From: Methanobrevibacter olleyae
GTDB taxonomy: Archaea; Methanobacteriota; Methanobacteria; Methanobacteriales; Methanobacteriaceae
Assembly (NCBI GenBank): GCA_015063035.1
Contig: SUTG01000007.1
Location: 1-61,091 of the forward strand
DNA length: 61,091 bases
Direction of reading: 5' to 3'
The notes under the pieces were generated by a model that was given only the letters and a program-made list of their open reading frames with translations, ran no database searches and was not told the DNA's origin. The translations under genes and the position numbers were made by a program. How positions within the stretch are numbered: the stretch's first letter is position 1; each line of letters begins with the position of its first letter. Below, one piece after another: positions 1 through 40,081 of the stretch.

Positions 1-120
1 AAAAAACAAAAAAAAACAAAAAAAAAAAATTATCGAAGCAAAATAAAAAATTATAAAAAAATAGATAAAAAACCATTAAAAATAGAAAATATCGAAGAAA
101 TATAAAAAAATAGATAAAAA

Positions 121-150
121 AATAAAAAAAGAATAAGGCAAATTGCCTTA
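121..150 (-). terminator. Hairpin plus U-tract terminator of the beta-helix adhesin
   Basis: Read on the minus strand, the stop codon at 164 is followed by a perfect inverted repeat (TAAGGCA, 3-nt loop, TGCCTTA; plus-strand 134-150) and then a T-rich run. This resembles a bacterial intrinsic terminator. Archaeal terminators are usually U-tracts without a hairpin, so the hairpin is notable. The role is inferred from position. Confidence 0.6.
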
Positions 151-163
151 AAAATTAGTTAAA

Positions 164-3100
164 TTATTTTATGTCCCTTTTGGAACGTTTTATAAGTTCT
201 GCCGCACATGCAAGTATAAGCAATATCAATATTATAAGTACAGGAGCATTCATTCCACCTAATGACAATGAAAGAGTAGCTGCAGGATCCTCATCAACAT
301 CCAAGTTATATGCAGTAGCTGATTCAGTTACTGGAGCAGATGAAGAGGTACCTACTGTGTTTCCATCCATCACTGTTGAATTTGACTTGATTCCTGTTCC
401 ATCCACAGTGGAATAGCCACCGGAATTGTTTCCATTTCCGTTTCCATTGCCATTGCTGCCTGAATTGGAGCCTCCGGAATTTGATCCGTTTCCTGAATTG
501 CTTCCTCCGGAACCGGAACCGCTTCCGCCACTTGAACCTCCATCTGAATCCCTCACATTGTTGTTTTCAAATGTATTGTTCTTTCCTCCAATATCATCAA
601 ACAACTGGTTCTCTGGAGGGATTACATCTGGGTGGCTTGTAGGCTCATAGTCAAGCAAGTCCAAGATATTGTAATCAGTGCCGTTTTTCCTTACTATCAT
701 AGGGGAATTAGAGCTATTATAGATTATATCCTCTTCGGTGAATACCACTGGACTGTCCGGATACTTCAATTCCCATATCCTATTGATTTCCTTAACGATT
801 CTAGGAATGAGTGGCTTCAAGGAAGGCACGCTGTTGTTTGTAACTCTGTTGTTGTTGGAGTTGTATAATGCAACAGCTCTTACAACCAATGCCTTATCGC
901 CATAATCTATGTGATTGTCATAGATTCTGCTATTATCAGCATCGTATCCTTCAACCAAGTAATTGATTCTTGAATTGCATGACACATTGTTCTTATAGAA
1001 CTTTGTATCATCAGCACCTTCAAGTATTGCACCATAGGACACGTTATTTGACTGGCAATGAATCTTGTTTCTTGCCATTGTAGTGTTAATGGAATTGTAA
1101 CCTGCTATAATGCCTGCTGCATAATATGTTCCATTTACATTGATAAGATTGTCAGTGAAGCTGTTGTTTGCAGCCACTTGGTCTCTCTTACCTGTTTCAG
1201 CTCCTAAAACACCTAATCCGTAAAGATATGGGTCCTTAGCTGTAACATTGACATTGTTGTGATGAACCTTGTTGTTATTGCTTTCATAATACAAGTCGAT
1301 TCCTACAATGGAATTTGTGGATTCCTTTACAGCTGTGTAGTACTTGTCAACACCAGAAGTGGCGCTTACCTTATTGTATCCAATATCGTTTGAAGATGAA
1401 TAGAATAAAATAATGCCGTAAGTCTTATAGACCTCTGGAATGACCATACCTTCGGCTTCATAGTCATCAACGCTGATGGAACTGTCCACTTTTATGGTTG
1501 AATCATAGAGATGAGGCTTGCTGGTTCCGTTTACGAGAATATTGTTGTTCCTTAATGAATTATTGTTTGAATCATAAAGCATTATTCCAAATGTCAATGC
1601 ATTTGCCTTTGTCTTAACGCTATTGTTTAAGATATTGCAATTGGATGACTCAGATACGTAGATTCCATATCCGTTGTCGTAGCTTTCCAATTGAATATTG
1701 TTGTTTGTTACATTAACGTTCTTGACATTGTCCAACAATATTGCAAACCTATGGTTATCCGCTGCATTTCCTGGATTTGAATTGATTATATTGAATCCAT
1801 CAACGACTACATTATCAGATTCAATCTTGATAACGGAATCTAATAATTTCGCACCATCTGATTTCAAATAAACCTGACGATTCAAAATGATTCTCTTATC
1901 ATTGAAGCTGCCTTTGAAGATCAGTTCATAATCCTCATATTCTGATTTGAGATAACCATTGTCATCAAAGCATGTGTAGAAATTATCCTCAGTTACAATG
2001 AATTGGTTTCTTAAGACACTGATATTTGTTGAAACCTTGCATGGATTGTAAATGTCATCTCCTGCATAACTTATATTCATTGCATAATTGCCAATATTTG
2101 CATTTATCTGCAAGCTTGCTTTACCTTCTCCATCAGTGGTTTTCAGATAATTCATATTCAATAATGTGAATGTTATATTTGCTCCACTGATTGGATTTCC
2201 ATTCTTATCCTTTAGGAAAACAACAAGCTCATTACCCTTGATTATTGAAGTGTCCGCTACAGTGATTGTTGTATTGACTTTAGAGTCACTATAGGTTCCA
2301 TTGTCAATGTCTCCGCCTGTGCCATTGGTATCATTGCCGGTTCCATTGTCTGTATCGTTTCTTTCTATCTCTGAAGGGTCAGTCATGTTCACAACTTGAC
2401 CGTTGATGGTATTGTTGTATATTGCATTATGACTTGGAGTTATCGGATTCCTATTGGTGTATTTCAATACAGCAATGGCATCAGAGTCTCCAGAGATGCT
2501 TATCCTATTGTCACAGACCAATGTATAGCTGACATTTCCCCTTAGCACAATGGCGCTTTTATCGCTTTCAAAGTCGTTGTTTCTTATTGTTATGTTTTCT
2601 GCAAGCCTTGATGTGAATATCATGACACCTGTTGAATTGACTCCAACAATAGTGTTGTTTTCGATTTTCACATTGGATTTTGTGGTGTTTATGCCGTTTG
2701 CAGATTCTGTATAGATTGTATTGTTTGCAATTACTGCATTTTCACCTGTATTCAATATTGAATCTGAACCTACAGACCTTAATGTATTGTTTGCAATCAC
2801 ATTGTTCTTGCCTGTATTTTGAATGGCAACCACATTTCCATCATCATTCCAATCATGAACATCAGTATGTTCAGTGGATATGTTGTTTCCTGAAACGATG
2901 ATGTTGTTTCCGCTTGCAAGAACAGCTGCAGGACCTCCAATGCTTGATATTGTATTGTTGTATATCAAGGTGTTTGGAGCTTCAACAATGACTCCATAGA
3001 AAGCGTTTTCTATGGTGTTGTTTGCTATAACTGCACCATTTCCGCTTGCAGTTTGCATCAGATAGATTGCATAGCAATATGAATTGTATGTACCGTTTCG

Positions 3101-4003
3101 ACTTTTAAGGTAATTGTTTGCTATAATGTTTCCACTGCAGACTTCATCTTCAATCGGCATGAAATCTCCATTTCCATATGCTGATTGATAAACCATATTG
3201 GTATATTCAGATTCAAGGTAATTGTCTCTGATTTCATTGTATGATGAAGCTGTCATCGGAATTGTTGAGCTTAGGCCAGATATTATCGTATTGTTGATGA
3301 TCCTGTTGTAGCTTGCATTTGACATCATTATCGCAAAGCACTTATGGACACTCACATTGATGATTGAGTTCCTTATAGTGTTGTTTGATGAGTCAATTAT
3401 GCTTATTCCAGACAAATAATAATTTGAACCTGTAATCTTTTCCTTTGTATTTACAATCCTGAGATTATCCAATACAGAGCCTGAACTTCCCTTTACAAGG
3501 CGTATGAGACAATTGGATAAGGTCGCACCATCATCGCAAATGATGTTCAGTCTCTTATCGATTGTAAATATCCTATCAGAAATACTTTTGATTTTGATAG
3601 TGTCTCCATCTTTCAAGGTTCCGGACTTGATTTTTCCATTGGAATCAAAGTATTGTGAATAACTTGAACTATCTATTACGATAGGTTCAGCAGATAATGT
3701 ATCCGGCTCTTCGTTAGAGCTTCCAATCTTTTCTGATTCCTTTGAAGAAGCAATTTCATCATCCAAATCATTTGTATCAGTGATTAAGTCATTATCAGTG
3801 ATTTCATGATTGGAATCATCAAAACCGCTTGTTAAATCATTACTTGAATCTGGTATTGCTATAGTGTCATCAATTGCACTATCTGACGAGTTAGTCAAAT
3901 CAGTGATACAGTCCCCTACATCACTTGCACTAACTGCACTCAAAGATAAGAATAATATCACTATTAAAGCAAGAATAGAGGGCAATTTCATTTTATTCGT
4001 CAT
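164..4003 (-). CDS. Adhesin-like beta-helix surface protein with C-terminal membrane anchor
   Basis: A 1279-aa exported protein. It has an N-terminal signal segment, an acidic Ser/Asp-rich linker, and two long blocks of Asn-rich short repeats typical of right-handed parallel beta-helix (NosD/pectate-lyase-like) adhesins, at roughly residues 120-540 and 640-1110. An Ig-like (Big_1-type) domain separates the blocks at about 560-640. Near the end there is a Gly/Ser/Asn-rich linker, then one hydrophobic helix and a basic tail (KRSKRDIK), so the protein is probably anchored in the membrane and projects through the pseudomurein wall. The start is the ATG at 4003 because GGAGGTGA lies directly upstream; an in-frame TTG at 4018 sits before that site. 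It follows the ExbB-like gene on the same strand after about 210 nt. The ligand is unknown. Confidence 0.85.
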   Translation of the reverse strand: MTNKMKLPSILALIVILFLSLSAVSASDVGDCITDLTNSSDSAIDDTIAIPDSSNDLTSGFDDSNHEITDNDLITDTNDLDDEIASSKESEKIGSSNEEPDTLSAEPIVIDSSSYSQYFDSNGKIKSGTLKDGDTIKIKSISDRIFTIDKRLNIICDDGATLSNCLIRLVKGSSGSVLDNLRIVNTKEKITGSNYYLSGISIIDSSNNTIRNSIINVSVHKCFAIMMSNASYNRIINNTIISGLSSTIPMTASSYNEIRDNYLESEYTNMVYQSAYGNGDFMPIEDEVCSGNIIANNYLKSRNGTYNSYCYAIYLMQTASGNGAVIANNTIENAFYGVIVEAPNTLIYNNTISSIGGPAAVLASGNNIIVSGNNISTEHTDVHDWNDDGNVVAIQNTGKNNVIANNTLRSVGSDSILNTGENAVIANNTIYTESANGINTTKSNVKIENNTIVGVNSTGVMIFTSRLAENITIRNNDFESDKSAIVLRGNVSYTLVCDNRISISGDSDAIAVLKYTNRNPITPSHNAIYNNTINGQVVNMTDPSEIERNDTDNGTGNDTNGTGGDIDNGTYSDSKVNTTITVADTSIIKGNELVVFLKDKNGNPISGANITFTLLNMNYLKTTDGEGKASLQINANIGNYAMNISYAGDDIYNPCKVSTNISVLRNQFIVTEDNFYTCFDDNGYLKSEYEDYELIFKGSFNDKRIILNRQVYLKSDGAKLLDSVIKIESDNVVVDGFNIINSNPGNAADNHRFAILLDNVKNVNVTNNNIQLESYDNGYGIYVSESSNCNILNNSVKTKANALTFGIMLYDSNNNSLRNNNILVNGTSKPHLYDSTIKVDSSISVDDYEAEGMVIPEVYKTYGIILFYSSSNDIGYNKVSATSGVDKYYTAVKESTNSIVGIDLYYESNNNKVHHNNVNVTAKDPYLYGLGVLGAETGKRDQVAANNSFTDNLINVNGTYYAAGIIAGYNSINTTMARNKIHCQSNNVSYGAILEGADDTKFYKNNVSCNSRINYLVEGYDADNSRIYDNHIDYGDKALVVRAVALYNSNNNRVTNNSVPSLKPLIPRIVKEINRIWELKYPDSPVVFTEEDIIYNSSNSPMIVRKNGTDYNILDLLDYEPTSHPDVIPPENQLFDDIGGKNNTFENNNVRDSDGGSSGGSGSGSGGSNSGNGSNSGGSNSGSNGNGNGNGNNSGGYSTVDGTGIKSNSTVMDGNTVGTSSSAPVTESATAYNLDVDEDPAATLSLSLGGMNAPVLIILILLILACAAELIKRSKRDIK

Positions 4004-4213
4004 TTCACCTCCATTCAAATTCTTATGAGTTATGATTTATTGTACTTATTATATAAAACTATCCAAATTGATTGAAAAAAAGTAAAATATAGTTAATTTG
4101 ATTTGATTGAGAATTAAAATGGAATTTAAAAATAAGATAATGGGATGATAATAGAAAAGATAAAAAAAATATTTTTAAAAGAAAAAAGTAGAAAAAAGAA
4201 GATAAGAAATTTA

Positions 4214-4861
4214 CTAATGATTAGACATAAAGTCCAATACTGCATCAGACAATACATCCAGATTAGATAAATACTCTTCATACCATCTGTTTCTAAGCTT
4301 TGAAATAACGTAAGCCACTGCACCTGATCCAATACCTACAACAGTTGTATCGAATGCTACAATCAATGATTGTGATAAGGTGTTTACATCACCTGAACCA
4401 AGTGCTGCAAGACCTGTTCCAAGAGGAATCAAGGTACCCATCAAACCTAAAGTAGGTCCGATACGGGTAATGACATCAGTTACCTCAAGAGACTTGTCAG
4501 TTAGGTTTTCCTCGTTTTCAATCAATTTGCGAGCAAATGCCTCTCTTGAAGCATCAGTCAAGTTTTCTGTGCTTGCTATCTTTACCAAAAGATTCTTTTG
4601 AGACTGTGGAAGTGAAGAGCCATTGATTTTTGCCTTCAATGAATCTATAGAATCTGAAGCGGACATGTCAAGAATCAGATTGGAGACCTCATCTACAGAA
4701 ACCCTTGTTCTTGAGGTGTATTCATAGATCAGTCCACCTAATGAAACCACTACAACCACTACAAAAACCAATAGTATGATAACTACCGGTATCAAAAGAC
4801 TTTGTGAAATCAAGTTAAGTCCAGTGGTTAAGAAGTCACCACCGGGAATTGCCATTGCCAT
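4214..4861 (-). CDS. MotA/TolQ/ExbB-type proton channel protein
   Basis: A 215-aa membrane protein of the MotA/TolQ/ExbB family, the stator part of ion-driven motors. It has an N-terminal helix, a cytoplasmic middle region rich in short helices, and a C-terminal helix pair with the family signature: GPTLGLMGTLIPLGTGL, then AFDTTVVGIGSGAVAY. The threonines in these two segments match the positions that line the channel in ExbB/TolQ. The start is the ATG at 4861, preceded by AGGTGA; an upstream TTG is in frame but has no such site. Upstream on the same strand are a seven-helix protein and an ExbD-like protein, so the three probably form one energised complex. Family assignment is firm; the partner being driven is unknown. 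Confidence 0.85.
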   Translation of the reverse strand: MAMAIPGGDFLTTGLNLISQSLLIPVVIILLVFVVVVVVSLGGLIYEYTSRTRVSVDEVSNLILDMSASDSIDSLKAKINGSSLPQSQKNLLVKIASTENLTDASREAFARKLIENEENLTDKSLEVTDVITRIGPTLGLMGTLIPLGTGLAALGSGDVNTLSQSLIVAFDTTVVGIGSGAVAYVISKLRNRWYEEYLSNLDVLSDAVLDFMSNH

Positions 4862-4951
4862 TAAATCACCTGTAATAAATATCAATAATTATAATTGTTT
4901 TTTGAAAAATTTTGAATAAATAAACATTTAAAACTGGATTAAAATATCTCT

Positions 4952-5072
4952 CTATTTTAAGCTATTATTTCTCTTTTCAAAAATTAAAACTGTTTAAACT
5001 ATTTTAACCTATTGTTTCTCTTTTCAAAAATTAAAACTGTTTAAACTATTTTAACCTATTGTTTCTCTTTTT
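4952..5072. repeat. 47-bp tandem repeat, three copies, overlapping a gene end
   Basis: Copies start at 4952, 4999 and 5046. The 5046 copy includes the last codons and the TAG stop of the seven-helix membrane gene. The other two copies lie in the spacer towards the ExbB gene. The arrangement suggests that the gene end was duplicated to make the spacer. Confidence 0.85.
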
Positions 5073-5777
5073 AAATAATGCTCCAATGCCAAGACAAATA
5101 GCCAATAGGACTATAAGAGCTATTCCTGCATTAACTGGCATTAAAGTCAATTGTGTAGATGGATACTCAAGCACCTGGCTTATTGTAGGCACAAAGAATC
5201 CAAATACAATGAATATGAATGCAAAGATCACCATCATGCTTCCATAAATGATTGGATAATGGGTAACACGGTAATCTTCAATGAAATCTGAAAATCTATA
5301 AGCTATAATGCTTATTATCATCAATAAAACCGCTATGATGATAGCCAAACGAACTGTTGAGATAGTCATTGAGATATTGGCTGTGTCAAAGACAAAGCTT
5401 GGGGACAATGCTGCAGATGACATTACAAGCAATCCATAGGATACTGGCATGAAATCAAAGTACAGCAATAGCTTTAAAAGATTGTCGTATTGCTTATTAT
5501 TTTCCCAATAATAAAAAGTGAATATTCCTAAAACCAATGCAATTATTGCCATGAATATATAGAAGAAGAAATTATTCACTGTCAATCCTATTAAGCTTTC
5601 ATTAAATGGGCTTAATGCAATTATTATTAAAGCAATTGCTATGGAAATGATCAATGAAATTATCATATGTTCCCTTAAGTCATTGCTAAAGAAATTGGAT
5701 AATAATCCAGTCCCGATTCCCAGCAATAAGATAGCAGCTAAAATAATTGTGCCAAATAGACTAACCAACAGATTCAT
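5046..5777 (-). CDS. Seven-helix membrane protein of the ExbB/ExbD-like locus (possibly DUF2162)
   Basis: A 243-aa, almost entirely hydrophobic protein with about seven predicted membrane helices (near residues 3-22, 33-53, 66-86, 99-120, 131-159, 171-195 and 213-235) and a short basic tail (KKRNNRLK). No catalytic motif is visible. It sits between the ExbD-like and ExbB-like genes on the same strand, 83 nt after the former, so co-transcription is likely. Methanogens carry a family of predicted transporters (DUF2162) of this size beside DUF2149 and ExbB genes, and that is the best guess from memory. The start is the ATG at 5777 with a weak GTGAT upstream. Confidence 0.6.
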   Translation of the reverse strand: MNLLVSLFGTIILAAILLLGIGTGLLSNFFSNDLREHMIISLIISIAIALIIIALSPFNESLIGLTVNNFFFYIFMAIIALVLGIFTFYYWENNKQYDNLLKLLLYFDFMPVSYGLLVMSSAALSPSFVFDTANISMTISTVRLAIIIAVLLMIISIIAYRFSDFIEDYRVTHYPIIYGSMMVIFAFIFIVFGFFVPTISQVLEYPSTQLTLMPVNAGIALIVLLAICLGIGALFKKRNNRLK

Positions 5778-5854
5778 TCTATCACAATTAACGATTTTAT
5801 AAAGTTCTTAATTAGTTTTTATAAATTATCAATTCAAAAACAATGAAAATGATA

Positions 5855-5868
5855 AGGGAATCATCCCT
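5855..5868 (-). terminator. Small hairpin spanning the stop codon of the ExbD-like gene
   Basis: AGGGA and TCCCT flank a 4-nt loop that contains part of the TGA stop (5861-5863). On the minus strand a moderately U-rich stretch follows. It may attenuate or terminate transcription, or protect the mRNA 3' end. It resembles two other stop-codon hairpins in the window. Confidence 0.35.
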
Positions 5869-6193
5869 CTACCATAATCAGATTACCCGTTTTCGAATCC
5901 TTATAAACCTTACCCTGTTCTACATAACCTTCTCCAGAGCTGTTTGAAGTGTCTGGAGTTTCATTCAATTTTTCACCTTGTGTTACATTAGTGATGTCCT
6001 TGATTGACTCCATTGTAGCCTGCCGCTCCTCTGGAGACATGTCACTAAAGATAACGCTTTGCAAGTTCCAGCCTATAACGGCAAAAATCAGGAATCCAAG
6101 AGCAAGAACAAGCATAGCATCAACAAGGTTTGTTGTACCAGCCATAGGATCCTCTTCCTGTCGTTTTCGGCGTCTAGATTTTTTTCTAACCAT
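5861..6193 (-). CDS. ExbD-like protein (DUF2149 family)
   Basis: A 110-aa protein with a very basic N-terminus (RKKSRRRKRQ), one membrane helix at about residues 23-45, and a polar extracytoplasmic part ending in a conserved-looking GNLIMVEG. The helix begins with LVDAMLVL, which closely resembles the LVDVMLVL of ExbD/TolR and places an Asp at residue 25, the position of the protonatable Asp in ExbD. This supports a proton-coupled stator role with the ExbB-like protein. DUF2149 is my recollection of the methanogen family name. The start is ATG 6193, which has GAAGG upstream; a longer frame from 6268 would add an unlikely hydrophobic leader. First gene of a probable four-gene unit. Confidence 0.75.
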   Translation of the reverse strand: MVRKKSRRRKRQEEDPMAGTTNLVDAMLVLALGFLIFAVIGWNLQSVIFSDMSPEERQATMESIKDITNVTQGEKLNETPDTSNSSGEGYVEQGKVYKDSKTGNLIMVEG

Positions 6194-6372: not shown

Positions 6373-7497
6373 CTAGTCTTCTAAAATATAATCTAAAATA
6401 AGCTTAGATGAATTTGGCTTAAATTCACCGAACTGCAATTTCAAGAACTCTTCCATCTTTTCCAATCTGAAGTCCTCTTCCTTGATTGCTTCTATCAATT
6501 CATCAATATTGTAAACTATCTTTCCTGGAACCATTTCCTCATAATCGAAGTAGAATCCACGTTCCTTGTAAAGATAATCATCTAAGTCATAATCAAATAG
6601 TATAGCAGGCTTTTTCAAGATAGTGTAATCCACCATGATTGAAGAATAGTCAGCCACTAAAATGTCAGCCAAAAGCAGAAGCTTCTGTTCATCCTTAAAT
6701 CCTGTAAAGTTGATTATATCATACTTGCTTGTTAATTCATCCAAATCAATTGTGTGCTCTTCATCACAGAATCTTTTATAATTAGGATGCAAGCGAATAG
6801 CTAAGGCATATTCATCACCTAATTCATCAAGGAACTTTTCTATATCAAAGTATTCAAAGACAGCATTGTTTTTAGGGTCTTCCCTAAATGTAGGTGCATA
6901 TAGAACCAGTTTTTTGCCCTTAAGCTGCGGATAATCCTTTTCAAATGATTCCCTTAAGTTGGACAAATAAGCATCAGACAAGTGTTCCTCATTATAGAAG
7001 TCATTTCTAGGAACTCCAAATGGCTTGACCTTTGACTTGTCAACATAGAAGTTGTGGGCATAGATATCCGCTACATTTTCACTGCTTACAGACACCAAGT
7101 CAATCTTAGGAGCAAACATTTCCATGACCTTCTTGTCCTCATCATTTAAGAGGTCATAGCCGAATTTCTTGAAGAGCCCTGTTCCATGCCATAACTGCAC
7201 CCATTTCATGCCTTCGACATTCATGAATGCAAGCGGGAAGAAATTATCAACCAAAAAGACGTATTTTGAACTTGCAAAGTCATGGATATTGCTAAATGAT
7301 AATGAATCCTTAGGAATGAACTTGTATTCATAATTCTTTCCAGAATTATTCCTATTGTCAAGTTCCTTTGCAATATACTCTAAATTAGCTTCAAATGAGT
7401 GGTTCTTGTTTGTTAAAAGAGTTATCTTATTGTTCTTTTGTGGAAATTTCCTAAGAATATTGAATATTGCTGCATATATCTTATGTTTTGCATACAC
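6373..7497 (-). CDS. CDP-glycerol glycerophosphotransferase family protein
   Basis: A 374-aa protein of the TagB/TagF family, which in Gram-positive bacteria transfers glycerol phosphate from CDP-glycerol when building teichoic acids. Visible motifs are QLWHGTGLFKKFG (about residues 100-112), a YAPTFRED segment, a conserved RLHPN, and ADYSSIMVDY followed by KKPAILFDYD. The order is that of the C-terminal nucleotide-binding half of the family. The start is GTG 7497 with TGAGGT upstream. In an archaeon with a pseudomurein wall it may modify a surface polymer or glycan; the substrate is not known. It is transcribed divergently from pyrF. Confidence 0.8.
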   Translation of the reverse strand: MYAKHKIYAAIFNILRKFPQKNNKITLLTNKNHSFEANLEYIAKELDNRNNSGKNYEYKFIPKDSLSFSNIHDFASSKYVFLVDNFFPLAFMNVEGMKWVQLWHGTGLFKKFGYDLLNDEDKKVMEMFAPKIDLVSVSSENVADIYAHNFYVDKSKVKPFGVPRNDFYNEEHLSDAYLSNLRESFEKDYPQLKGKKLVLYAPTFREDPKNNAVFEYFDIEKFLDELGDEYALAIRLHPNYKRFCDEEHTIDLDELTSKYDIINFTGFKDEQKLLLLADILVADYSSIMVDYTILKKPAILFDYDLDDYLYKERGFYFDYEEMVPGKIVYNIDELIEAIKEEDFRLEKMEEFLKLQFGEFKPNSSKLILDYILED

Positions 7498-31111: not shown

Positions 31112-34100
31112 CTATTTTATTCTAATAGTGTTCTTAATAGTTAATTTTCCATATGTTGAATAAATCACATATTTGCCTCTTTTCAATTTTTTAAGGCTTA
31201 ATGTAGCTATTCCTTTAGAATTGGTTTTTCTTTTGTATATTTTGGACTTGAACTTGAATTTAATGTATTTGTATTTCAAGATCTTTCCTTTTGAATTAAC
31301 TAGTTTAGCAGTAAACTTGATAGTTTTCGCTTTCTTTTTGGTAATGTTCTTTGTAATGACAGTGGATTTTACAGTAACATTATTCTTTACAACAAATCCT
31401 TTATAACTAGCGGAAATAGCGTATTTTTTAGGTTTTAGACTTATTTTCAAGTAAGCATATCCCTTATTGTCTGTTTTTCTGCTGTAGGTTTTTCCGTTTA
31501 TTGTGAACTTTACTGTAACATTCTTTGCAATTCTTCCATAGTCATCATAAACCCTAACCTTATAGCTGGAACCTGCTCCATAATACATTAGCAAATTCTT
31601 ATTTTCAGTAATTCTCTTGAGAACTTTGATAGTTTGGTTTTTCTCCTCTAATGTGACAGGATTCTTAATTGAAACCTTGTAAGTTCCAGGTTTAAGTGTG
31701 TTGTTTATGATGATTCTTCCATTGCTATCTGTATTTAAATTGTAAGTTTTGCCTGCAAAGACAATTGTTACAGTCTGATTAGCCAAAGGATTGGAATCCT
31801 TATCCAAGAGGCTTACGATATATTTTGATCCGTAAGTGTAATTGCTGGAAGGAAGATTAATGCTTGATTTTACATTGATAACCGCTGAATTTGATGAGTT
31901 TTTATAAACTTTCTCTCCAGCATATCTTATTTCAAAAGCATATGTACCTGCCGGTAAACTGATATTCAATAAAGCCTCACCATTTTCATCAGTGACAAGA
32001 GTATCACTGATATTGTTTAAAGTATAGACAAGCTCTCTTCCACAGATAGGATTTCCATCCTCATCAGTCAATCTAACCCTATACTCATAACCGCTATTAT
32101 AAACAGTATCTAAATCTGAACAAATGATATTTGTGCCTTTAGGCTCAATTGTAAAACTGTCAACAAATTCATTTGATTGGTAAACTGAATCATCAAGAAG
32201 AATCCTTATGTGATTTAATCCAAGTTTCAAGTCAGTGAAGTTAATGGATGCCTTACCGTCAACAGATTCTATAGATTTATTCATATCATCCAAAATAATC
32301 AATATTGTCTTATTAAGTGATTCATTAAGCTCAATATTCACCAAAACTGTATCCAAATTAACGGTGATATTTGCAGTTAATGTCACAGGTATTTTTTCTA
32401 CATTTATTGATTGATTAAATGATGAAGAACTGTAACCAATTGCATTAAATTGAGCGAATATTTCATTTAATCCACTTGTGAAATTATAAGTGACTTTTGC
32501 AACTCCATCAGATACATCAATAGGAACAATTTCCCCAGACAAGTTAAATACCACTTCACCACAATCAACAGGATTTCCAAATTGATCCAAAACATGAGCA
32601 GTAATATTCACAGGATTAGTGCGATCATAAACAATATCCAAAGTAGTTGTAGTGTTAATGGCTAAAACATTAATTGTCTGATTTTTCTCCTCTAAAGTAA
32701 CAGGGTTTACAATTGTAACATCATAAGTTCCAGGAACTAAAACAAGACCCACATCAGCAATTCCATTACCATCAGTCAATACATTATATGCTTCACCTGC
32801 AATAACAATGATTACTTCTTGATTTGCCAAAGAATCAGATGATTTATTCAACAATTTCACACTATAAGAAGATCCATATAAATAATTCTCTTCTAAAGGC
32901 CATATGCTTGTATTTACAGTAATCAAAGCAGAATTAGATGAGTTTACATATGCATTTTTTCCCTTGAATTTTATTTCAAAAGTATAAACTCCAGTTTCTA
33001 AACTGACATTCAATGAAACTTCACCATTCTCATCAGTTATAAGAATATCAGTAACATTGTTTAAGGTATATTCAAGTTCTCTCCCACCAAGAGGATTTCC
33101 TTCCTCATCAGTTAACCTAACTTTATACTCACAACCGCTATTATAAATGGTTTCTAAGTCTGCAAGAGAGATATTTGTGGCTATAGGCTCAATTGTGAAG
33201 TTATCAAGTACCTCATTAGACTCATAAACTGCATCATAAAGAATAATTCTAATATTGTTTAAACCAATATGATAATCACTCAAATTAATGGATGCCTTAC
33301 CATCAATGGATTTTGTTGTGTAGTTTACATTATCTAAAATTAAAATAATTGTTTCATTGATTGGTTTTGTAAGGTTAATATTCACTAAAACAGCGTTTAA
33401 ATCAACTACAATGTCTGCAGTCATATTAACATCTATCTTTTTAATATTTACACTTGAATTATTAGATGAAGAAGCATAACCGCAAGCTATAAACTCTGCA
33501 AATATTGCATTAAAACCTTTTTTAAAGACATAACTTAATTTTGCCACACCATTTGAAACATTTACTGATACAATCTCGCCAGATATATTGAATATCACTT
33601 TTCCACAGTTGACAGGATTTCCATATTGATTTGTAACATAAGCAATAATGTTTACAGGATTGAAACCTTCATGGTCTGAAACGTTAAATGGATTTACACC
33701 CTCATAAACTACATTTAAGGAAGTTATTGTGCTAATTACATCAAATACAGTAAACGCTTTTATGCAAGCCACCTGTGAATTGTAACTATGGCCGCTATAG
33801 CCTTTCCATTCCAATTCATAAAGGTCTTCCCAATTTTCACCATCATAGCTGACGAATGAGATTGCTTCCTTATAGAATACATTGTTAAGACTTACCTTTT
33901 CAGAAATAGGGAATCCTGCATCTCCAGTTACATTTATCTTAAAGACAACTTCAAATATGTCTCCCACATTGAGTGGAACATGCTCGAAAAGGTCAATTGT
34001 CCAGTATCCTGGAGTGGAAAATCCTGATTTAGTGGATTTCAAAACATCATTTACATAAACTGATAATTCCCAATCAGTCTCTTTTTGGAAGTAAGTTGAC

Positions 34101-36067
34101 ACTGCAGCCAAATATTCATTTTGAGTGGCATTGAATACATTCTTATACCAAACAGTATCAGTCTCATTGAGGAAGTAATCAGTTAGAGCCAAGTCATATT
34201 GATAGTTCTTATCGTATTTGATAGTGGTATTTAAAACAAATACAAATGCACCGCCATATGACCCAGGCTTAAAAGAGCTTACATCATAATATGATAAGTA
34301 GAAATAACCTTTATTTCCACTATTATTTCCCCAACTGTTTTTAGCTATCCAAGCGCCTTTTCCAGGGGCATTAGGGATGTTTATATAATCATCCCATCCC
34401 ACAATAGCTACAGCGTGATTGCATGAAGCATCTGCATCATTATAAACATATGTGCCAATGCTTGCATCGGAATTTGAACGCATCTTCAATGAAGCATAGG
34501 CAGCACCATAATCCATAATTGCTTTTTTAATCATGTCATTATCAGTATAATTATTCCTATTCAAATAGAATACATTCTGAACATGCATTATGCTGCTTAA
34601 GACAGGGGATAAGACACTACTTCCAGTATATCTATCATCCACATCATATACCGGACCTAACCAACTTGCAAGATAGCCAATAGCTAACCTATCATTTCCA
34701 CCATCATTGGTTGTCCAATCCCAACCATAAGGGGAATATAAAGCAGCAAGGTTTTTCATATTCTCTTCTGAAATGTCTATTAAAGAAGTTAGATTTTCAG
34801 GATCATTCAATAATGCCAAAATATCTGCATATTCATCATAATCATTTAGCAACCCTGAACTGTTCATATTGTAAATAGCTTTAATAATAGCTGATTCAAG
34901 ACTTGCAATTGTTGCAAAAGCCCAGCAATTACCTCCATCTCTTTGATTTTTAACTGTAGTTACCATTCCGTACTCTGAAAGATTGTAATAAGATGGAATT
35001 TCATCAATTTCATCAGTTAAATTAAGTCTAAAGAAAGTGTAATTGTCTGAAAGGACTATTAAATCTGATTTTTCATATAAATCGTTATAGTTAACTGCAG
35101 AGTTGTTTTCATAAAGATTATTGGAAATTGTATAGTTTTGATTATAGAAAGTGTAAACAGCACCTGCGGAACTATTTGCAATGTTATTGGTGAAGTTATT
35201 GCTTTCAATCAAGAATCCATTTTTGCTGAATATGAATACTGCTCCACCATCATTTGCATTGTTCTTATCAAAAGCAGATGAAGTGAGACTTAAATTACCG
35301 TAAAGCTGATAAATAGCCCCACCATAATATTTTCCAGTATTATTTATAAAATTACAATTGCTTATGCTTACATTGCCTCCATTGGAGAATATGGCTCCAC
35401 CATAAAGAGCATAATTATTATAGAAGCTGCAATTGTTTAAAATAACGGAATTATCGTTTCCAAAGCAATAGATTGCTCCACCACATGAGGTTCCAGAGTT
35501 ATCTAGCTCTAAGGCAGTGCTGTTGTAGAAATTAACATTTGAAGCATTTAAAAGGCTTCCCATACCCACAAACTGGATATTGACAAAACTAATGTTTTCA
35601 ATATTAAATGTCTCATAGTAATCAAACCTATGATAATCATCAATTCCGTTGATGAATGTATTGGATGAATTCTGCCCATAAATAGAAACATTAAACAAAT
35701 TAGTTGAATAAGGAGTGTAATTGTAAATACCGCTAGCAAAGTGCAAAATGGAATTATCCATTATCCTATCATCTGAGAATGTCTTATATGGATTATCAAT
35801 GGAGCCGTTTCCATTATCATCCCAAGCAGTGGAGTCAAAGTATATGTCCATTTTTGGCTCTTCCTCAGGATCATCCTCGCCTTCACCAGCAAATAGATCA
35901 CTATCTGCACTATCACTAATCAAAACATCATCAATTGAATCATCAATCATGAGATTATCATCTATTGAAGCCACATTATCATCTGCAGCAAAACTGGCAG
36001 GAATGATGAGCAATAATGACAGGATTATTGATAATATAATGATTGAATTATATTTTTTCTTTAACAA
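31112..36067 (-). CDS. Adhesin-like protein with papain-family peptidase and Ig-like repeats
   Basis: A 1651-aa exported protein. In order: signal peptide (1-28), acidic linker, a beta-helix of GGAI(Y/F) repeats (about 100-330), a C1A papain-type peptidase (about 360-600), a lectin-like domain that follows this peptidase in related proteins (about 615-790), several Ig-like domains, and a Lys-rich C-terminal Ig-type domain. The catalytic set is present: Gln375, Cys381 in GGNCWAFA, His551 in NHAVAIVGWDD, and Asn577 in KNSWG. The start is TTG 36067 with AGGGTGA 5 nt upstream. It lies 33 nt after its paralogue on the same strand and so is probably co-transcribed. It may cut wall-associated or partner-cell proteins. 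Confidence 0.87.
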   Translation of the reverse strand: MLKKKYNSIIILSIILSLLLIIPASFAADDNVASIDDNLMIDDSIDDVLISDSADSDLFAGEGEDDPEEEPKMDIYFDSTAWDDNGNGSIDNPYKTFSDDRIMDNSILHFASGIYNYTPYSTNLFNVSIYGQNSSNTFINGIDDYHRFDYYETFNIENISFVNIQFVGMGSLLNASNVNFYNSTALELDNSGTSCGGAIYCFGNDNSVILNNCSFYNNYALYGGAIFSNGGNVSISNCNFINNTGKYYGGAIYQLYGNLSLTSSAFDKNNANDGGAVFIFSKNGFLIESNNFTNNIANSSAGAVYTFYNQNYTISNNLYENNSAVNYNDLYEKSDLIVLSDNYTFFRLNLTDEIDEIPSYYNLSEYGMVTTVKNQRDGGNCWAFATIASLESAIIKAIYNMNSSGLLNDYDEYADILALLNDPENLTSLIDISEENMKNLAALYSPYGWDWTTNDGGNDRLAIGYLASWLGPVYDVDDRYTGSSVLSPVLSSIMHVQNVFYLNRNNYTDNDMIKKAIMDYGAAYASLKMRSNSDASIGTYVYNDADASCNHAVAIVGWDDYINIPNAPGKGAWIAKNSWGNNSGNKGYFYLSYYDVSSFKPGSYGGAFVFVLNTTIKYDKNYQYDLALTDYFLNETDTVWYKNVFNATQNEYLAAVSTYFQKETDWELSVYVNDVLKSTKSGFSTPGYWTIDLFEHVPLNVGDIFEVVFKINVTGDAGFPISEKVSLNNVFYKEAISFVSYDGENWEDLYELEWKGYSGHSYNSQVACIKAFTVFDVISTITSLNVVYEGVNPFNVSDHEGFNPVNIIAYVTNQYGNPVNCGKVIFNISGEIVSVNVSNGVAKLSYVFKKGFNAIFAEFIACGYASSSNNSSVNIKKIDVNMTADIVVDLNAVLVNINLTKPINETIILILDNVNYTTKSIDGKASINLSDYHIGLNNIRIILYDAVYESNEVLDNFTIEPIATNISLADLETIYNSGCEYKVRLTDEEGNPLGGRELEYTLNNVTDILITDENGEVSLNVSLETGVYTFEIKFKGKNAYVNSSNSALITVNTSIWPLEENYLYGSSYSVKLLNKSSDSLANQEVIIVIAGEAYNVLTDGNGIADVGLVLVPGTYDVTIVNPVTLEEKNQTINVLAINTTTTLDIVYDRTNPVNITAHVLDQFGNPVDCGEVVFNLSGEIVPIDVSDGVAKVTYNFTSGLNEIFAQFNAIGYSSSSFNQSINVEKIPVTLTANITVNLDTVLVNIELNESLNKTILIILDDMNKSIESVDGKASINFTDLKLGLNHIRILLDDSVYQSNEFVDSFTIEPKGTNIICSDLDTVYNSGYEYRVRLTDEDGNPICGRELVYTLNNISDTLVTDENGEALLNISLPAGTYAFEIRYAGEKVYKNSSNSAVINVKSSINLPSSNYTYGSKYIVSLLDKDSNPLANQTVTIVFAGKTYNLNTDSNGRIIINNTLKPGTYKVSIKNPVTLEEKNQTIKVLKRITENKNLLMYYGAGSSYKVRVYDDYGRIAKNVTVKFTINGKTYSRKTDNKGYAYLKISLKPKKYAISASYKGFVVKNNVTVKSTVITKNITKKKAKTIKFTAKLVNSKGKILKYKYIKFKFKSKIYKRKTNSKGIATLSLKKLKRGKYVIYSTYGKLTIKNTIRIK

Positions 36068-36100: not shown

Positions 36101-39100
36101 CTATATAATTTTAATTATATTTTTAACCGTCAATTTTCCATAAGTTGAATAAATGTAATATTTTCCTTTTTTCAAGTTTTTAAGGTTTACAGTGGCTATT
36201 CCTTTAGAATTGGTCTTTCTTTTATATTTGACAGCCCCTAATTTAAATGTAATGATTTTATTCCTTAGGATTTTGCCTTTGGAATTGACCAATTTGGCTG
36301 TGAATTTAATTGTTTTGGCTTTCTTACTTGAAATGTCTTTTGTAATGAGAGGAATGACCTTTATTTTATTCTTGACTGTAAATCCTTTATAAGTTGCTGA
36401 AACAGTATAGGTTTTAGGCTTCAAGCTAATCTTAAGGCTTGCAATTCCTTTGCTGTTAGTCTTTTTATAATATGTTTTGCCATTTAGTGTGAATTTAACT
36501 GTAACCTTTTTGGCAATTCTTCCATAATTGTCCAAGACTCTAACCTTATAGTATTTGCCTGCACCATAATACATGGTCATGTTCTTGTTTTTATCAATTC
36601 TGGCCAATACCTTAATCTTATGGGTCTTAACTTCAGAAGTCTTTGGATTCTTGACCTTTATAGTATAGCTTCCTGGCTTTAGATGATTAGTGATCTTGAC
36701 TATTCCATTAGCATCTGTCTTTAGCTTATAAGTTTTTCCTCCAAATACGATTGTCACGTATGTGTTCTTTAAAGGATTTGGCTTTTTATCCCGGAATTTC
36801 ACACTGTATTTGGAGTTATAAGTGAAATTGGAATACTTTGGAAGCACAACAGTTGTCTTGATATTGACTTTAGCGGAATTGGAGGATTTCATATAGAGCT
36901 TTTCTCCCTTAAAGGTCACAACCATCTTATAATTGCCCGCCTTTATATTGGTTAATGTTATCTCACCGTTCTTATCTGTTGTGCCGGTATAAGTCTTATC
37001 CAAGACATATTCAATCTTTCTTCCAGCAAGAGGATTTCCGTTCTCATCAATGAGCTTGATCTTATACTTATAGGCATTGCCGTATATTGTTTCAAGATTG
37101 CTTAGAATGATTTGTGTATCATATGTGTCAACGTTGAAAGTGTATGAGTCATTATTGCAATCATATATTGCAGGATAAAGCTCTATTATAAGATTATTAA
37201 GGCCCACTTTCAAGTCTGTTAAGTTGATTGAAGCATTTCCATTGATTGTTTTGGTTGTAAAGTTCCTATATCCGAATAAGAAGAAAATGGTTTCGTTAAC
37301 TGTGTCATTAAGGCTTATGTTTACAAATGCACTATCGAAATAATATGAAATGTTTGTATCCATTGCAAGGTCATATTTGGTAATATTTACAGATGAAGTA
37401 TGTGGAAGAAGAGGTTTATAAGCACAGGATACGAATTCTGCAGATATGTTATGGAATCCTCTCTTAAATATGTAACTAAGTTTTGCAACACCACTGTGAA
37501 CATCCACATAAACAACATCATCCGGTGAGCCTTCATTAGTGAAAATAAATTTAACTTTACCACAATTTACAGGCCTTCCATATTGATTTGTAACATTAAC
37601 TGTGAAATTTACAGGATTGAAGCTTTTTCCATCAACAGTGAGGAAATCCATACTCCATGTACTTGTAGCAGATATATTATTCAATATTGTAAATGCCTTT
37701 ATGCAAGCCACTTGAGACTTGTAAAAGTGATCAGGATAATCATTCCATTCCAATTCATATAAATCTGTCCAGGTTTTACCGTTATAGCTGATGAATGAAA
37801 TGTTTTTCCTATAAAACTGATTGTTTAAGCTTTGTGATTCTGAAATAGGAACTCCTACATCTCCTTTAACCATTATCTTAAAGACAACTTCAAATATGTC
37901 CCCAACATTAAGTTGGATAGGTTCTCTCAAATCTATAGTCCAATATCCTGGATTACTGAATGCAGATTGAACCAATTTCAATGTATTGTTCACATAAATG
38001 GATAATGTATAATTGGTTTCCTTTTCAAAGTAAGTTGAAACTGCAGTCAAATACTCCTCATCAGTTGCAGTGAAGATATTCTTGTACCATATTGTATTTG
38101 TGGTATTGTAGAAGAAATCTGTTTTAGCAATGTCATATTGATAGTTCTTATCAAACTTGATTGTATCATTTAGAATGAATGTAAAGGCATCCCCCCATTT
38201 TCCTAATTCTATAGATGATTTATCATAATATGAAAGATAGTAGTAACCATTGTTACCGTTGCTAGTTCCCCAACTGTTTTTAATAATCCAAGCACCTTTT
38301 CCAGGGGCACCAGGTATTTCTATAGTATCATTCCATCCAACTATTGAAACCGCATGGTTACGGAATGTAACATTATTATAAATATAATACCCAATAGTGC
38401 TATCATATGGCATTGAGATGGATTTTGTATAAACTGGAGTGAAAACAGCCCCATAATCCATAATAGCTCGTTTAATCATATCATTATCAGTATAGCTATC
38501 TCTTTTTAGGTATAATACATTCTGAACATGCATTACGCTAGATAAGACTGGAGATAAAACACTTGCATAATTATACTTGTCATCAGAATCATAAACTGGG
38601 CCTAACCAACTTAAAAGGTATCCTAAAGCCATATCAGGATATCCCCCCTCATTGGTTTCCGCATCCCAGCCGTAAACCGAATAAAGCTCAGCAATGTTTT
38701 TCATGTTTTCTTCTGACAAGTCAAGCTGATCTGCAGGAATGCCAGATGCTTTTAGGATACAGGATTCCAAAGTGGAAATTGTAGCAAAGGCCCAACAATT
38801 ACCCCCTCCCTCTTGTTTCTTTATAGAAGTTACATAACCATTGGATAGGGAACTGTAACTGCTTGGCAAACTTCCATTGCTTAAATTATAAGCATACATT
38901 GTATAGTTATTGTCTTGGATGACGAAATCAAAATTGGAAGTGTTATAGAGATTATTATAATCAGAATCTGAAGCAGTGTTGTTTTCATAGAAATTGTCTA
39001 AACTGCTTTTATTGTTGAAGATATAATATACTGCTCCAGCATATCCAATTGCAGAATTGTTGATAAATGTATTGTTAGTTATTGAAAGGGTTTTAGTGCC

Positions 39101-40081
39101 AGCTACAGAAATACCTGCTCCGTTTTTAGCATGATTAGATAAGAAAGTGGATTTGGAAACATTTAGATTTCCATACATCTGATAAATCACACCACCATCA
39201 TTGCTTGCAGTGTTGTTGATTCCAGTCAAATTGATTATTTTAGAACCGGAATTCAATAATGTTAAAGCACCACCAATACTTGCATTATTATCAATAAATT
39301 CACAATTGGTGATTTCCAGATTGTTTCCAATTGCATAAATGGCTCCACCAATACTTGCAGAATTATTAAAGAATCTGCAATTTGTTATTTTTATTGTGCT
39401 GGAACTAGAATAGATTGCTCCACCATATCTTGCGGAATTCTTATAGAAACTGCAATTATTCAAATAAACTGAATAGGAATTTCCTTTGGAATAAATAGAT
39501 CCACCACATTGATCCCTACCTAGACCTACTTGTCCATCTCCATTAGTGAAAATTACATTTGAAGCGTTTAATTTGCCGTAATTATAAATTTCAGCACCAT
39601 CTAAAGTGACATTTATAAGAGTAAAAGTTCCATATACCTTAAAAGCATCCCTCGTCAAATTCTTAAGGATTGTCTGGCTAGCATCTTGCCCAATAATCTT
39701 AACATTATTGAAACTCTGAGACAAATTAACATTATAAACTCCATTTGCTAAATGAATCACAGAATCATTTTTTATTATTAATCTATCAGAGGCATTTAAA
39801 CTATTAAAATAATAATCCGCAGAAAGAATGTCATTATCTGATACGCTGCTATCAAGAATATCCTCTTCATCATTCGCAGAATCTAGTGAGATATCATCAT
39901 CTATAGAATCCAATGAATCCTCTTTATCTTCTACAGATTCTGCAAGATTCAAGGAATTGTCTGAGAAAATACTCTCATCCATTGAATATGCATCAGCATC
40001 TGCTGCAAATGATGTTGGAATAACGATTAAAGAAAGGAAAATCATCAAACAAACAAGAAGTTTATAATGAGTTTTATGCAT
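36101..40081 (-). CDS. Adhesin-like protein with papain-family peptidase (paralogue)
   Basis: A 1326-aa paralogue of the downstream gene, with the same domain order but fewer Ig-like repeats. Signal peptide 1-27, beta-helix GGAIY repeats (about 110-370), papain-type peptidase (about 410-625) with Gln423, Cys429, His576 and Asn602, a lectin-like domain (about 640-810), then Ig-like domains and a Lys-rich end. The central peptidase and lectin blocks are clearly alike between the two, so they arose by tandem duplication. The start is ATG 40081 with GGAGAATAAAA upstream. Confidence 0.87.
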   Translation of the reverse strand: MHKTHYKLLVCLMIFLSLIVIPTSFAADADAYSMDESIFSDNSLNLAESVEDKEDSLDSIDDDISLDSANDEEDILDSSVSDNDILSADYYFNSLNASDRLIIKNDSVIHLANGVYNVNLSQSFNNVKIIGQDASQTILKNLTRDAFKVYGTFTLINVTLDGAEIYNYGKLNASNVIFTNGDGQVGLGRDQCGGSIYSKGNSYSVYLNNCSFYKNSARYGGAIYSSSSTIKITNCRFFNNSASIGGAIYAIGNNLEITNCEFIDNNASIGGALTLLNSGSKIINLTGINNTASNDGGVIYQMYGNLNVSKSTFLSNHAKNGAGISVAGTKTLSITNNTFINNSAIGYAGAVYYIFNNKSSLDNFYENNTASDSDYNNLYNTSNFDFVIQDNNYTMYAYNLSNGSLPSSYSSLSNGYVTSIKKQEGGGNCWAFATISTLESCILKASGIPADQLDLSEENMKNIAELYSVYGWDAETNEGGYPDMALGYLLSWLGPVYDSDDKYNYASVLSPVLSSVMHVQNVLYLKRDSYTDNDMIKRAIMDYGAVFTPVYTKSISMPYDSTIGYYIYNNVTFRNHAVSIVGWNDTIEIPGAPGKGAWIIKNSWGTSNGNNGYYYLSYYDKSSIELGKWGDAFTFILNDTIKFDKNYQYDIAKTDFFYNTTNTIWYKNIFTATDEEYLTAVSTYFEKETNYTLSIYVNNTLKLVQSAFSNPGYWTIDLREPIQLNVGDIFEVVFKIMVKGDVGVPISESQSLNNQFYRKNISFISYNGKTWTDLYELEWNDYPDHFYKSQVACIKAFTILNNISATSTWSMDFLTVDGKSFNPVNFTVNVTNQYGRPVNCGKVKFIFTNEGSPDDVVYVDVHSGVAKLSYIFKRGFHNISAEFVSCAYKPLLPHTSSVNITKYDLAMDTNISYYFDSAFVNISLNDTVNETIFFLFGYRNFTTKTINGNASINLTDLKVGLNNLIIELYPAIYDCNNDSYTFNVDTYDTQIILSNLETIYGNAYKYKIKLIDENGNPLAGRKIEYVLDKTYTGTTDKNGEITLTNIKAGNYKMVVTFKGEKLYMKSSNSAKVNIKTTVVLPKYSNFTYNSKYSVKFRDKKPNPLKNTYVTIVFGGKTYKLKTDANGIVKITNHLKPGSYTIKVKNPKTSEVKTHKIKVLARIDKNKNMTMYYGAGKYYKVRVLDNYGRIAKKVTVKFTLNGKTYYKKTNSKGIASLKISLKPKTYTVSATYKGFTVKNKIKVIPLITKDISSKKAKTIKFTAKLVNSKGKILRNKIITFKLGAVKYKRKTNSKGIATVNLKNLKKGKYYIYSTYGKLTVKNIIKII

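Follow-up and report, generated by a model that had tools for sequence, protein, structure and literature searches.

An ExbB-DUF2149 motor cassette beside an anchored beta-helix protein in Methanobrevibacter olleyae: a candidate for TonB-like nutrient uptake without an outer membrane

Introduction

What would a motor of the ExbB type drive in an archaeon that has a pseudomurein wall and no outer membrane? The question is raised by a 61,091-nucleotide stretch of DNA from Methanobrevibacter olleyae (contig SUTG01000007.1 of assembly GCA_015063035.1; hereafter the window), in which genes for a DUF2149 protein, a DUF2162 protein, a channel protein of the MotA/TolQ/ExbB family and a large beta-helix surface protein follow one another on one strand. 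The window is the entire contig C18 of a 2.28 Mb genome that is 95.6% complete. A preliminary description, made from the DNA sequence, had seen here an ExbB/ExbD-like energy module followed by an adhesin gene, and proposed that the driven partner was the seven-helix protein, the wall or the adhesin. The four genes, their coordinates and their strand are confirmed. The surface protein has the strongest support among the three proposed partners; what had been missed is that the locus is larger and that its motor belongs to a known CobN-type cassette. We think it somewhat probable, on balance, that ExbB and DUF2149 act on the surface protein to power ion-driven nutrient uptake without an outer membrane, the nutrient probably being a corrinoid, a tetrapyrrole or a vitamin.

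Results

On the minus strand the order of transcription is Glyphos_transf, DUF2149, DUF2162, MotA/TolQ/ExbB and then the beta-helix/NosD-like surface protein. The cassette and its partner comprise the following features.

5861..6193, minus strand: DUF2149 protein, 110 residues, ATG at 6193 (PF09919, E 1.6e-19); basic cytoplasmic N-terminus, one membrane helix, short ectodomain
5046..5777, minus strand: DUF2162 protein, 243 residues (PF09930, E 6.7e-23); seven membrane helices
4214..4861, minus strand: MotA/TolQ/ExbB-family channel protein, 215 residues (PF01618, E 7.2e-11); GLMGT and DTT segments
164..4003, minus strand: surface protein, 1279 residues, ATG at 4003 (Beta_helix, E 1e-16; NosD, E 2e-12)
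290..313, minus strand: tail peptide AYNLDVDE of the surface protein, a divergent position-equivalent of the [K/N][A/S]YE[V/I/L] box described below; kept in eight type-A relatives
191..247, minus strand: C-terminal membrane helix of the surface protein, with basic KRSKRDIK directly after it

The surface protein begins with a signal peptide and runs through two beta-helix/NosD-like blocks and a linker rich in Ser, Gly and Asn to the C-terminal membrane helix. The preliminary description had correctly picked out all four products: a 110-residue protein with LVDAMLVL and an Asp at residue 25, an ExbB-like protein with GLMGT and DTT, a seven-helix protein between them and a membrane-anchored beta-helix protein next on the same strand. 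It had also named gene order as a point on which its idea could fail, and the four-gene order proved to be kept in about ten Methanobrevibacter species. Because the order is conserved, we reject a chance neighbourhood. As in an HmuTUV-type cassette, the DUF2162/permease, ExbB and DUF2149 families are adjacent on one strand. The intergenic gaps within the four-gene run measure 83, 184 and 210 bp; a 47-bp unit repeated 2.6 times with 96% matches (4952-5075) covers the last codons of DUF2162 and part of the gap before exbB.

The motor residues are conserved. N22 and D25 are invariant in an alignment of 25 divergent DUF2149 proteins, in the helix context N22-L-V-D25-A-M-L-V-L, and among 24 divergent ExbB-like proteins G-L-x-G-T is invariant and the threonine of DTT nearly so. 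The window ExbB-like protein falls within PF01618 (42.4 bits against a curated cut-off of 22.9, with conserved G-L-x-G-T and T-T segments), and the archaeal ExbB-like profile matches the solved MotA 9luc (E 8.8e-5). DUF2149 possesses the single helix with an essential Asp in a D-x-M/L-L-V-L context that marks ExbD/TolR (PF02472), and the near-identity to ExbD/TolR claimed earlier for LVDAMLVL holds over this membrane helix and not beyond it: hhalign pairs the families over 22 columns, with probability 55, in the membrane helix only. Neither the ExbD/TolR periplasmic domain nor a PF02472 match was found in DUF2149 (Pfam gives DUF2149 alone), no ExbD was among the PDB fold matches of its AlphaFold2 model (mean predicted local distance difference test score, pLDDT, 65, which is low), and the DUF2149 profile drew from the PDB sequences a designed membrane protein alone (E 0.09). 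In that model a helix spans residues 18-50 and a hairpin residues 95-108, and the predicted ectodomain, of about 60 residues, combines a short helix with the conserved C-terminal beta-hairpin. Membership of DUF2149 in the ExbD/TolR family is thus rejected because the ExbD periplasmic domain is lacking, although the Asp helix is common to both. What stands of the original idea is an energy module in a pseudomurein-walled archaeon with no outer membrane; its ExbD half lies outside the family for which it was named.

The trio does not constitute a Ton system; it is the motor cassette that also occurs in the hmuSTUV heme operon of bacteria and in the CobN-chelatase clusters of archaea. The hmuYRSTUV operon of the Bacteroidota encodes an ExbB-like protein (HmuU), a protein annotated as DUF2149 (HmuV), a putative permease (HmuT) and a CobN-like heme dechelatase (HmuS) that has membrane helices at its N- and C-termini (PMC10434189, PMC12583661, PMC13227078). 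The cassette and these bacterial relatives were therefore already known. Both systems join a permease-like protein, an ExbB-family protein and DUF2149 (HmuT being set beside DUF2162 by description only) to a large secreted partner with a C-terminal membrane helix; the window differs in its beta-helix/NosD-like partner, its linked importer (below), a genome without CobN and the absence of an outer membrane. In other Methanobacteriales and in Methanosarcina-type genomes the trio adjoins a secreted CobN, and in the latter exbB and DUF2149 overlap by 4 bp. These archaeal clusters, of Methanothermobacter and Methanosarcina type, share with the window the three-gene cassette and an anchored protein bearing a C-terminal element, whereas the load there is a CobN-type chelatase. 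Because the trio is the known cassette of such chelatase clusters, the ancestral-type load would have been a membrane-anchored, HmuS-like dechelatase of the CobN type. The M. olleyae genome holds five copies of DUF2149, and no match to CobN (PF02514) was found in it, so that the CobN partner of an HmuSTUV system is missing from this 95.6% complete assembly. No bacterial DUF2162 relatives were found in the plasmid collection, and the best 80 matches of a scan of genome contigs were all from Methanobacteriales (two of them, L243 and L261, carry bacterial labels as metagenome-assembled genomes).

Within the genus, motor types differ by their large neighbour, or client, which may be CobN, an FmdE-domain protein or a beta-helix protein, the last in some cases without DUF2162. 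On a tree of 93 ExbB proteins the window type (type A) forms one clade with full support, and client identity switches at least 11 times. Methanothermobacter-type genomes have one DUF2149 and about 7-13 surface proteins with the C-terminal tail described below, that is, one motor with many clients (in Methanothermobacter thermautotrophicus the tailed proteins number about 11-13); among them, G060-G071 (L194-L199) encode several FmdE-domain surface proteins of about 900-970 residues and many secreted CobN proteins, all of them tail-bearing, with a single DUF2149 motor. Type-C motors (L071, L072, L076, L077, L079, L113) neighbour a beta-helix protein with the tail KTLSVDDETFRV...LYYRED and have a formate/nitrite transporter gene after them (PF01226 in L072 and L113); type-C loci in the genus also contain molybdopterin and FrhB/FdhB-type genes resembling those of formate dehydrogenase (typed in L072).

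One could suppose that the motor energises the DUF2162 transporter, and that the surface protein is an unrelated adhesin lying next door by chance. DUF2162 is in the cassette at most loci, and HmuT has been termed a putative permease (PMC13227078). The AlphaFold2 model of DUF2162 has seven helices (pLDDT 82), and a PDB fold search with it returned only unspecific helical bundles. The window protein is without the P-C-P-C-C motif that CobN-linked relatives carry, a motif that tracks the client: it occurs at 53 of 53 loci with CobN clients versus 3 of 44 with beta-helix clients (Fisher p 3e-24). On the 3-4 independent pairs the association is not significant (p 0.125), and for this reason we treat it as a hint only. 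Against this proposal, many motors without DUF2162 still adjoin an anchored surface protein (23 beta-helix loci), and it has no place for the common C-terminal element of the clients or for the coupling of that element to DUF2149. We judge it quite improbable.

The clients (CobN, FmdE-domain, beta-helix) have unrelated ectodomains, yet across Methanobacteriales they resemble one another over roughly the final 50 residues, which comprise a Ser-rich linker, a [K/N][A/S]YE[V/I/L] box and a membrane helix ending in G-Y, the distance from box to G-Y being mostly 33 residues. When a profile is made from CobN tails alone, motor-linked FmdE proteins (up to 46 bits) and beta-helix proteins (up to 34 bits) come out on top, and anchored proteins that have other tails fall far below. 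Secreted CobN carries the element, whereas cytosolic CobN has no signal peptide, C-terminal helix or element; Methanosarcina-type CobN has a related tail, VEGYEM(T/E)...GFRRR. Tail-bearing proteins of the M. olleyae genome adjoin motors or lie at contig ends that correspond to motor loci in relatives, and anchored beta-helix proteins away from motors have a different, GNP-type tail. The exception is an unlinked beta-helix protein of 1464 residues with no motor nearby (L192:2690-7084; G000:C32), whose tail, KAYMIYKN...ILGYYRES, reaches 20.8 bits with the general tail profile and which is a candidate second client of a distant motor.

The GNP-type anchor, ...GNP[IF][AL]L...helix...R[N/K]K, is found at 43905-46643 of the window and in L215 and L216 (G000:C22, C68), with no motor nearby, and is possibly a separate sorting signal. 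Two further large surface proteins lie in tandem in the window (31112-36067 and 36101-40081); each has a papain-like cysteine-protease stretch, recognised by eye (GGNCWAFA...), inside beta-helix and immunoglobulin-like repeats, and neither has a C-terminal membrane helix.

Methanobrevibacter beta-helix proteins are regarded as adhesin-like (PMC11532034, PMC2812497), and for M. ruminantium M1 14 members with a C-terminal anchor have been noted (PMC2812497). The window protein shares with these NosD/adhesin-like proteins a right-handed beta-helix ectodomain and differs in its motor linkage and tail element, which were undescribed in the open-access literature searched. Might the motor then extend, turn or retract an adhesin, regulating contact with partner microbes and carrying no nutrient at all? 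MotAB- and Agl-type relatives do power surface movement. Yet the adhesin-like proteins of this genome mostly differ in their C-termini and are without a motor, the genes linked here encode importers and the homologous loads are chelatases, and an adhesion device appears to us very unlikely.

If clients are gripped through their tails, tail and motor might be expected to vary together. In an exploratory comparison confined to pairs of modules whose clients come from different families, similarity of the box tracked similarity of the DUF2149 ectodomain (rho 0.29), with a partial r of 0.36 after removal of ExbB, the DUF2149 N-terminus and the DUF2149 helix (0 of 1000 permutations). Similarity of the client tail helix tracked that of the DUF2149 helix (partial r 0.21, p 0.004), and among these pairs no such tracking was seen with ExbB or with the cytoplasmic part of DUF2149. 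Neither signal changes sign if any one ExbB cluster is dropped. The pattern would fit direct contact of box with ectodomain and of helix with helix, comparable to the Ton system, in which the TonB D-box near the membrane helix is captured by ExbD through a beta-strand (PMC10907165).

The tail of the window protein itself is AYNLDVDEDPAATLSLSLGGMNAPVLIILILLILACAAELIKRSKRDIK, and its conservation within the type is 0.87, compared with 0.77 in the linker. Among 19 genomes of the genus, 12 have the type-A motor and surface protein together, one has the motor alone, one the surface protein alone (at a contig edge) and five neither (Fisher p 0.003; most of these five are incomplete). The pair co-occurs even when it is not adjacent, as in G012, where motor and surface protein are 200 kb apart. 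These figures bear on the idea of a relict, in which copies of an hmu-like motor have been decoupled and drift loadless in the window clade. The genome has no CobN, the DUF2162 cysteine motif is lost and the tail is divergent, as a relict would predict; set against this, the type-A module is present in 13 of the 19 genomes with its motor residues intact, and the surface-protein tail is at least as well conserved as the rest of the protein. We regard a relict as highly improbable.

The real locus is larger than the cassette and its partner, with a polymerase gene upstream and, beyond the window edge, an importer downstream. The nine relatives examined all encode, downstream of the type-A surface protein on its own strand, an EcfT-like protein with six helices, two fused energy-coupling factor (ECF) ATPases and an ECF S-component; among the nine, L309 has a further large gene between the surface protein and the ECF genes. 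One such S-component gene lies at L305:3834-4538. The T component is assigned from position and a weak CbiQ match (E 0.005). The ECF genes stay with the type-A surface protein also where these are separated from the motor, and at a locus of another genus (L102), where the motor has no surface protein next to it, homologues of all three adjoin the motor directly. The M. olleyae EcfT-like gene (96% identical) lies on contig C76, and the end of C76 and the start of the window map onto overlapping bases of the relative G009. The best solved relative of the S-component is 6fnp_A (E 5e-9); 6FNP is the vitamin B12 transporter ECF-CbrT (PMC5997447). The likeness to ECF-CbrT lies in this S-component; the match is distant, the T component is barely recognisable, and ECF-CbrT comes without a motor or surface protein. 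FmdE-type loci nearly always carry CbiM, the S-component of a cobalt-type ECF importer.

Three further features frame the run of four genes.

6373..7497, minus strand: Glyphos_transf, a TarF/TarL/TarB-like polymerase (PF04464, E 2e-61), directly upstream of DUF2149
4047..4058, minus strand: TATA-like TTTTATATAATA, about 44 bp ahead of the surface-protein start; a possible separate promoter, read from the sequence
1..163, minus strand: contig edge; the end of contig C76 maps to the same spot on a relative

Glyphos_transf is the gene next upstream of DUF2149 in each of the 12 type-A loci with upstream sequence (the window; L055-L062, L064-L066), and the fixed presence of this TarF/TarL-like gene suggests that pseudomurein archaea have a teichoic-acid-like wall polymer. 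Polysaccharide is a frequent ligand of beta-helix folds. The motor and the beta-helix protein could thus be a wall-polymer machine, moving or attaching a teichoic-acid-like phosphopolymer made through Glyphos_transf, with the importer a mere neighbour. It is the upstream polymerase gene, together with the report that walls of Methanobrevibacter ruminantium hold phosphate in teichoic-acid-like amounts (PMC2812497), that makes this the main rival to nutrient uptake. Against it, the genus has further Glyphos_transf copies elsewhere, away from motors, other motor types have no Glyphos_transf gene, and where the surface protein has left motor and polymerase the ECF importer has gone with it. We consider a wall-polymer machine unlikely, if the most serious of the alternatives.

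Discussion

We propose that the cassette is a motor whose load is the anchored surface protein. An ExbB-like ring in the cytoplasmic membrane would surround DUF2149 helices, and ion flow through Asp25 would move DUF2149, the moving part. Working from below, DUF2149 may grip the tail helix and box of its client just outside the membrane. The load would then bear its own docking helix, which reverses the TonB idea, and because the load itself carries this helix neither a separate TonB nor an outer membrane would be needed. In the window clade the ancestral-type dechelatase would have been swapped for a beta-helix/NosD-like protein that binds a large, scarce nutrient in the pseudomurein wall or outside it, and the motor stroke could cause this protein to release the nutrient, or strip it, for the ECF importer encoded next to it. 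CobN clients may work by removing metal from a tetrapyrrole, FmdE clients by passing cobalt or nickel to CbiM, and the window type by supplying the ECF importer with a corrinoid, a tetrapyrrole or a vitamin. What the sequences show is the set of genes, their conserved order, the C-terminal element common to the relatives' clients and the importer linked to them; assembly of the ring, the flow of ions, the force on the load, the identity of the substrate and its hand-over are inferred.

The comparison with the Ton system is instructive. ExbB-type channel residues, a single helix bearing an Asp (D25 in both) and a force-accepting partner with one membrane helix and a nearby peptide, the D-box in the case of TonB, are found on both sides. 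The differences are that DUF2149 lacks the ExbD domain, that the docking helix is C-terminal and part of the load, and that there is no outer membrane. Neither TonB nor TonB-dependent receptors were found by inspection among the listed open reading frames of the window, no genome-wide search for TonB having been made.

Several observations weigh against nutrient uptake driven in this way. The CobN-only and leave-out profiles score the window tail no better than shuffled sequence; its AYNLDVDE...ACAAELIKRSKR reaches -0.9 bits against the leave-out profile, within the range of the shuffles. Since the profiles treat the tail like shuffled sequence, we infer the docking element of the window protein from its position, its conservation within the family and its linkage. 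The co-variation test was exploratory, involving many comparisons among related sequences that are not independent, and 41 of 147 motors have no anchored client within 6 kb, some of them at contig ends. CbrT is a distant match for the S-component, whose family Pfam files under riboflavin, and the upstream polymerase gene is equally compatible with a role in a wall polymer. Finally, with the intergenic gaps and the possible separate promoter at the surface-protein gene, co-transcription of all four genes is no more than a possibility.

A broader reading can be offered more tentatively. A general, client-swapping TonB-like system may operate in single-membrane methanogens, in which one or a few ExbB-DUF2149 motors drive many surface proteins, each with its own docking helix and box and a paired micronutrient importer, the window copy feeding an importer of the B12 type; we put its likelihood a little short of even. 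Exchange of partners with retention of the docking element, co-variation of that element with DUF2149 and linkage of beta-helix proteins to ECF importers were not found in the open-access literature searched.

The use that archaea make of many HmuS/CobN homologues has been called unclear (PMC12583661). Our proposal provides a testable answer to this puzzle: these homologues may be the loads of an ion-driven motor, recognised through a C-terminal element and exchangeable. If this is true, TonB-like energy transduction would be possible without an outer membrane, and the pseudomurein wall may pose a supply problem similar to that of the outer membrane. In rumen methanogens, a function would be assigned to some large surface proteins that have been considered as targets for methane mitigation, and there would be a means of predicting which of these are nutrient receptors rather than adhesins. 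These observations suggest that a gut methanogen with one membrane may use the energy of that membrane to pull scarce nutrients through its wall.

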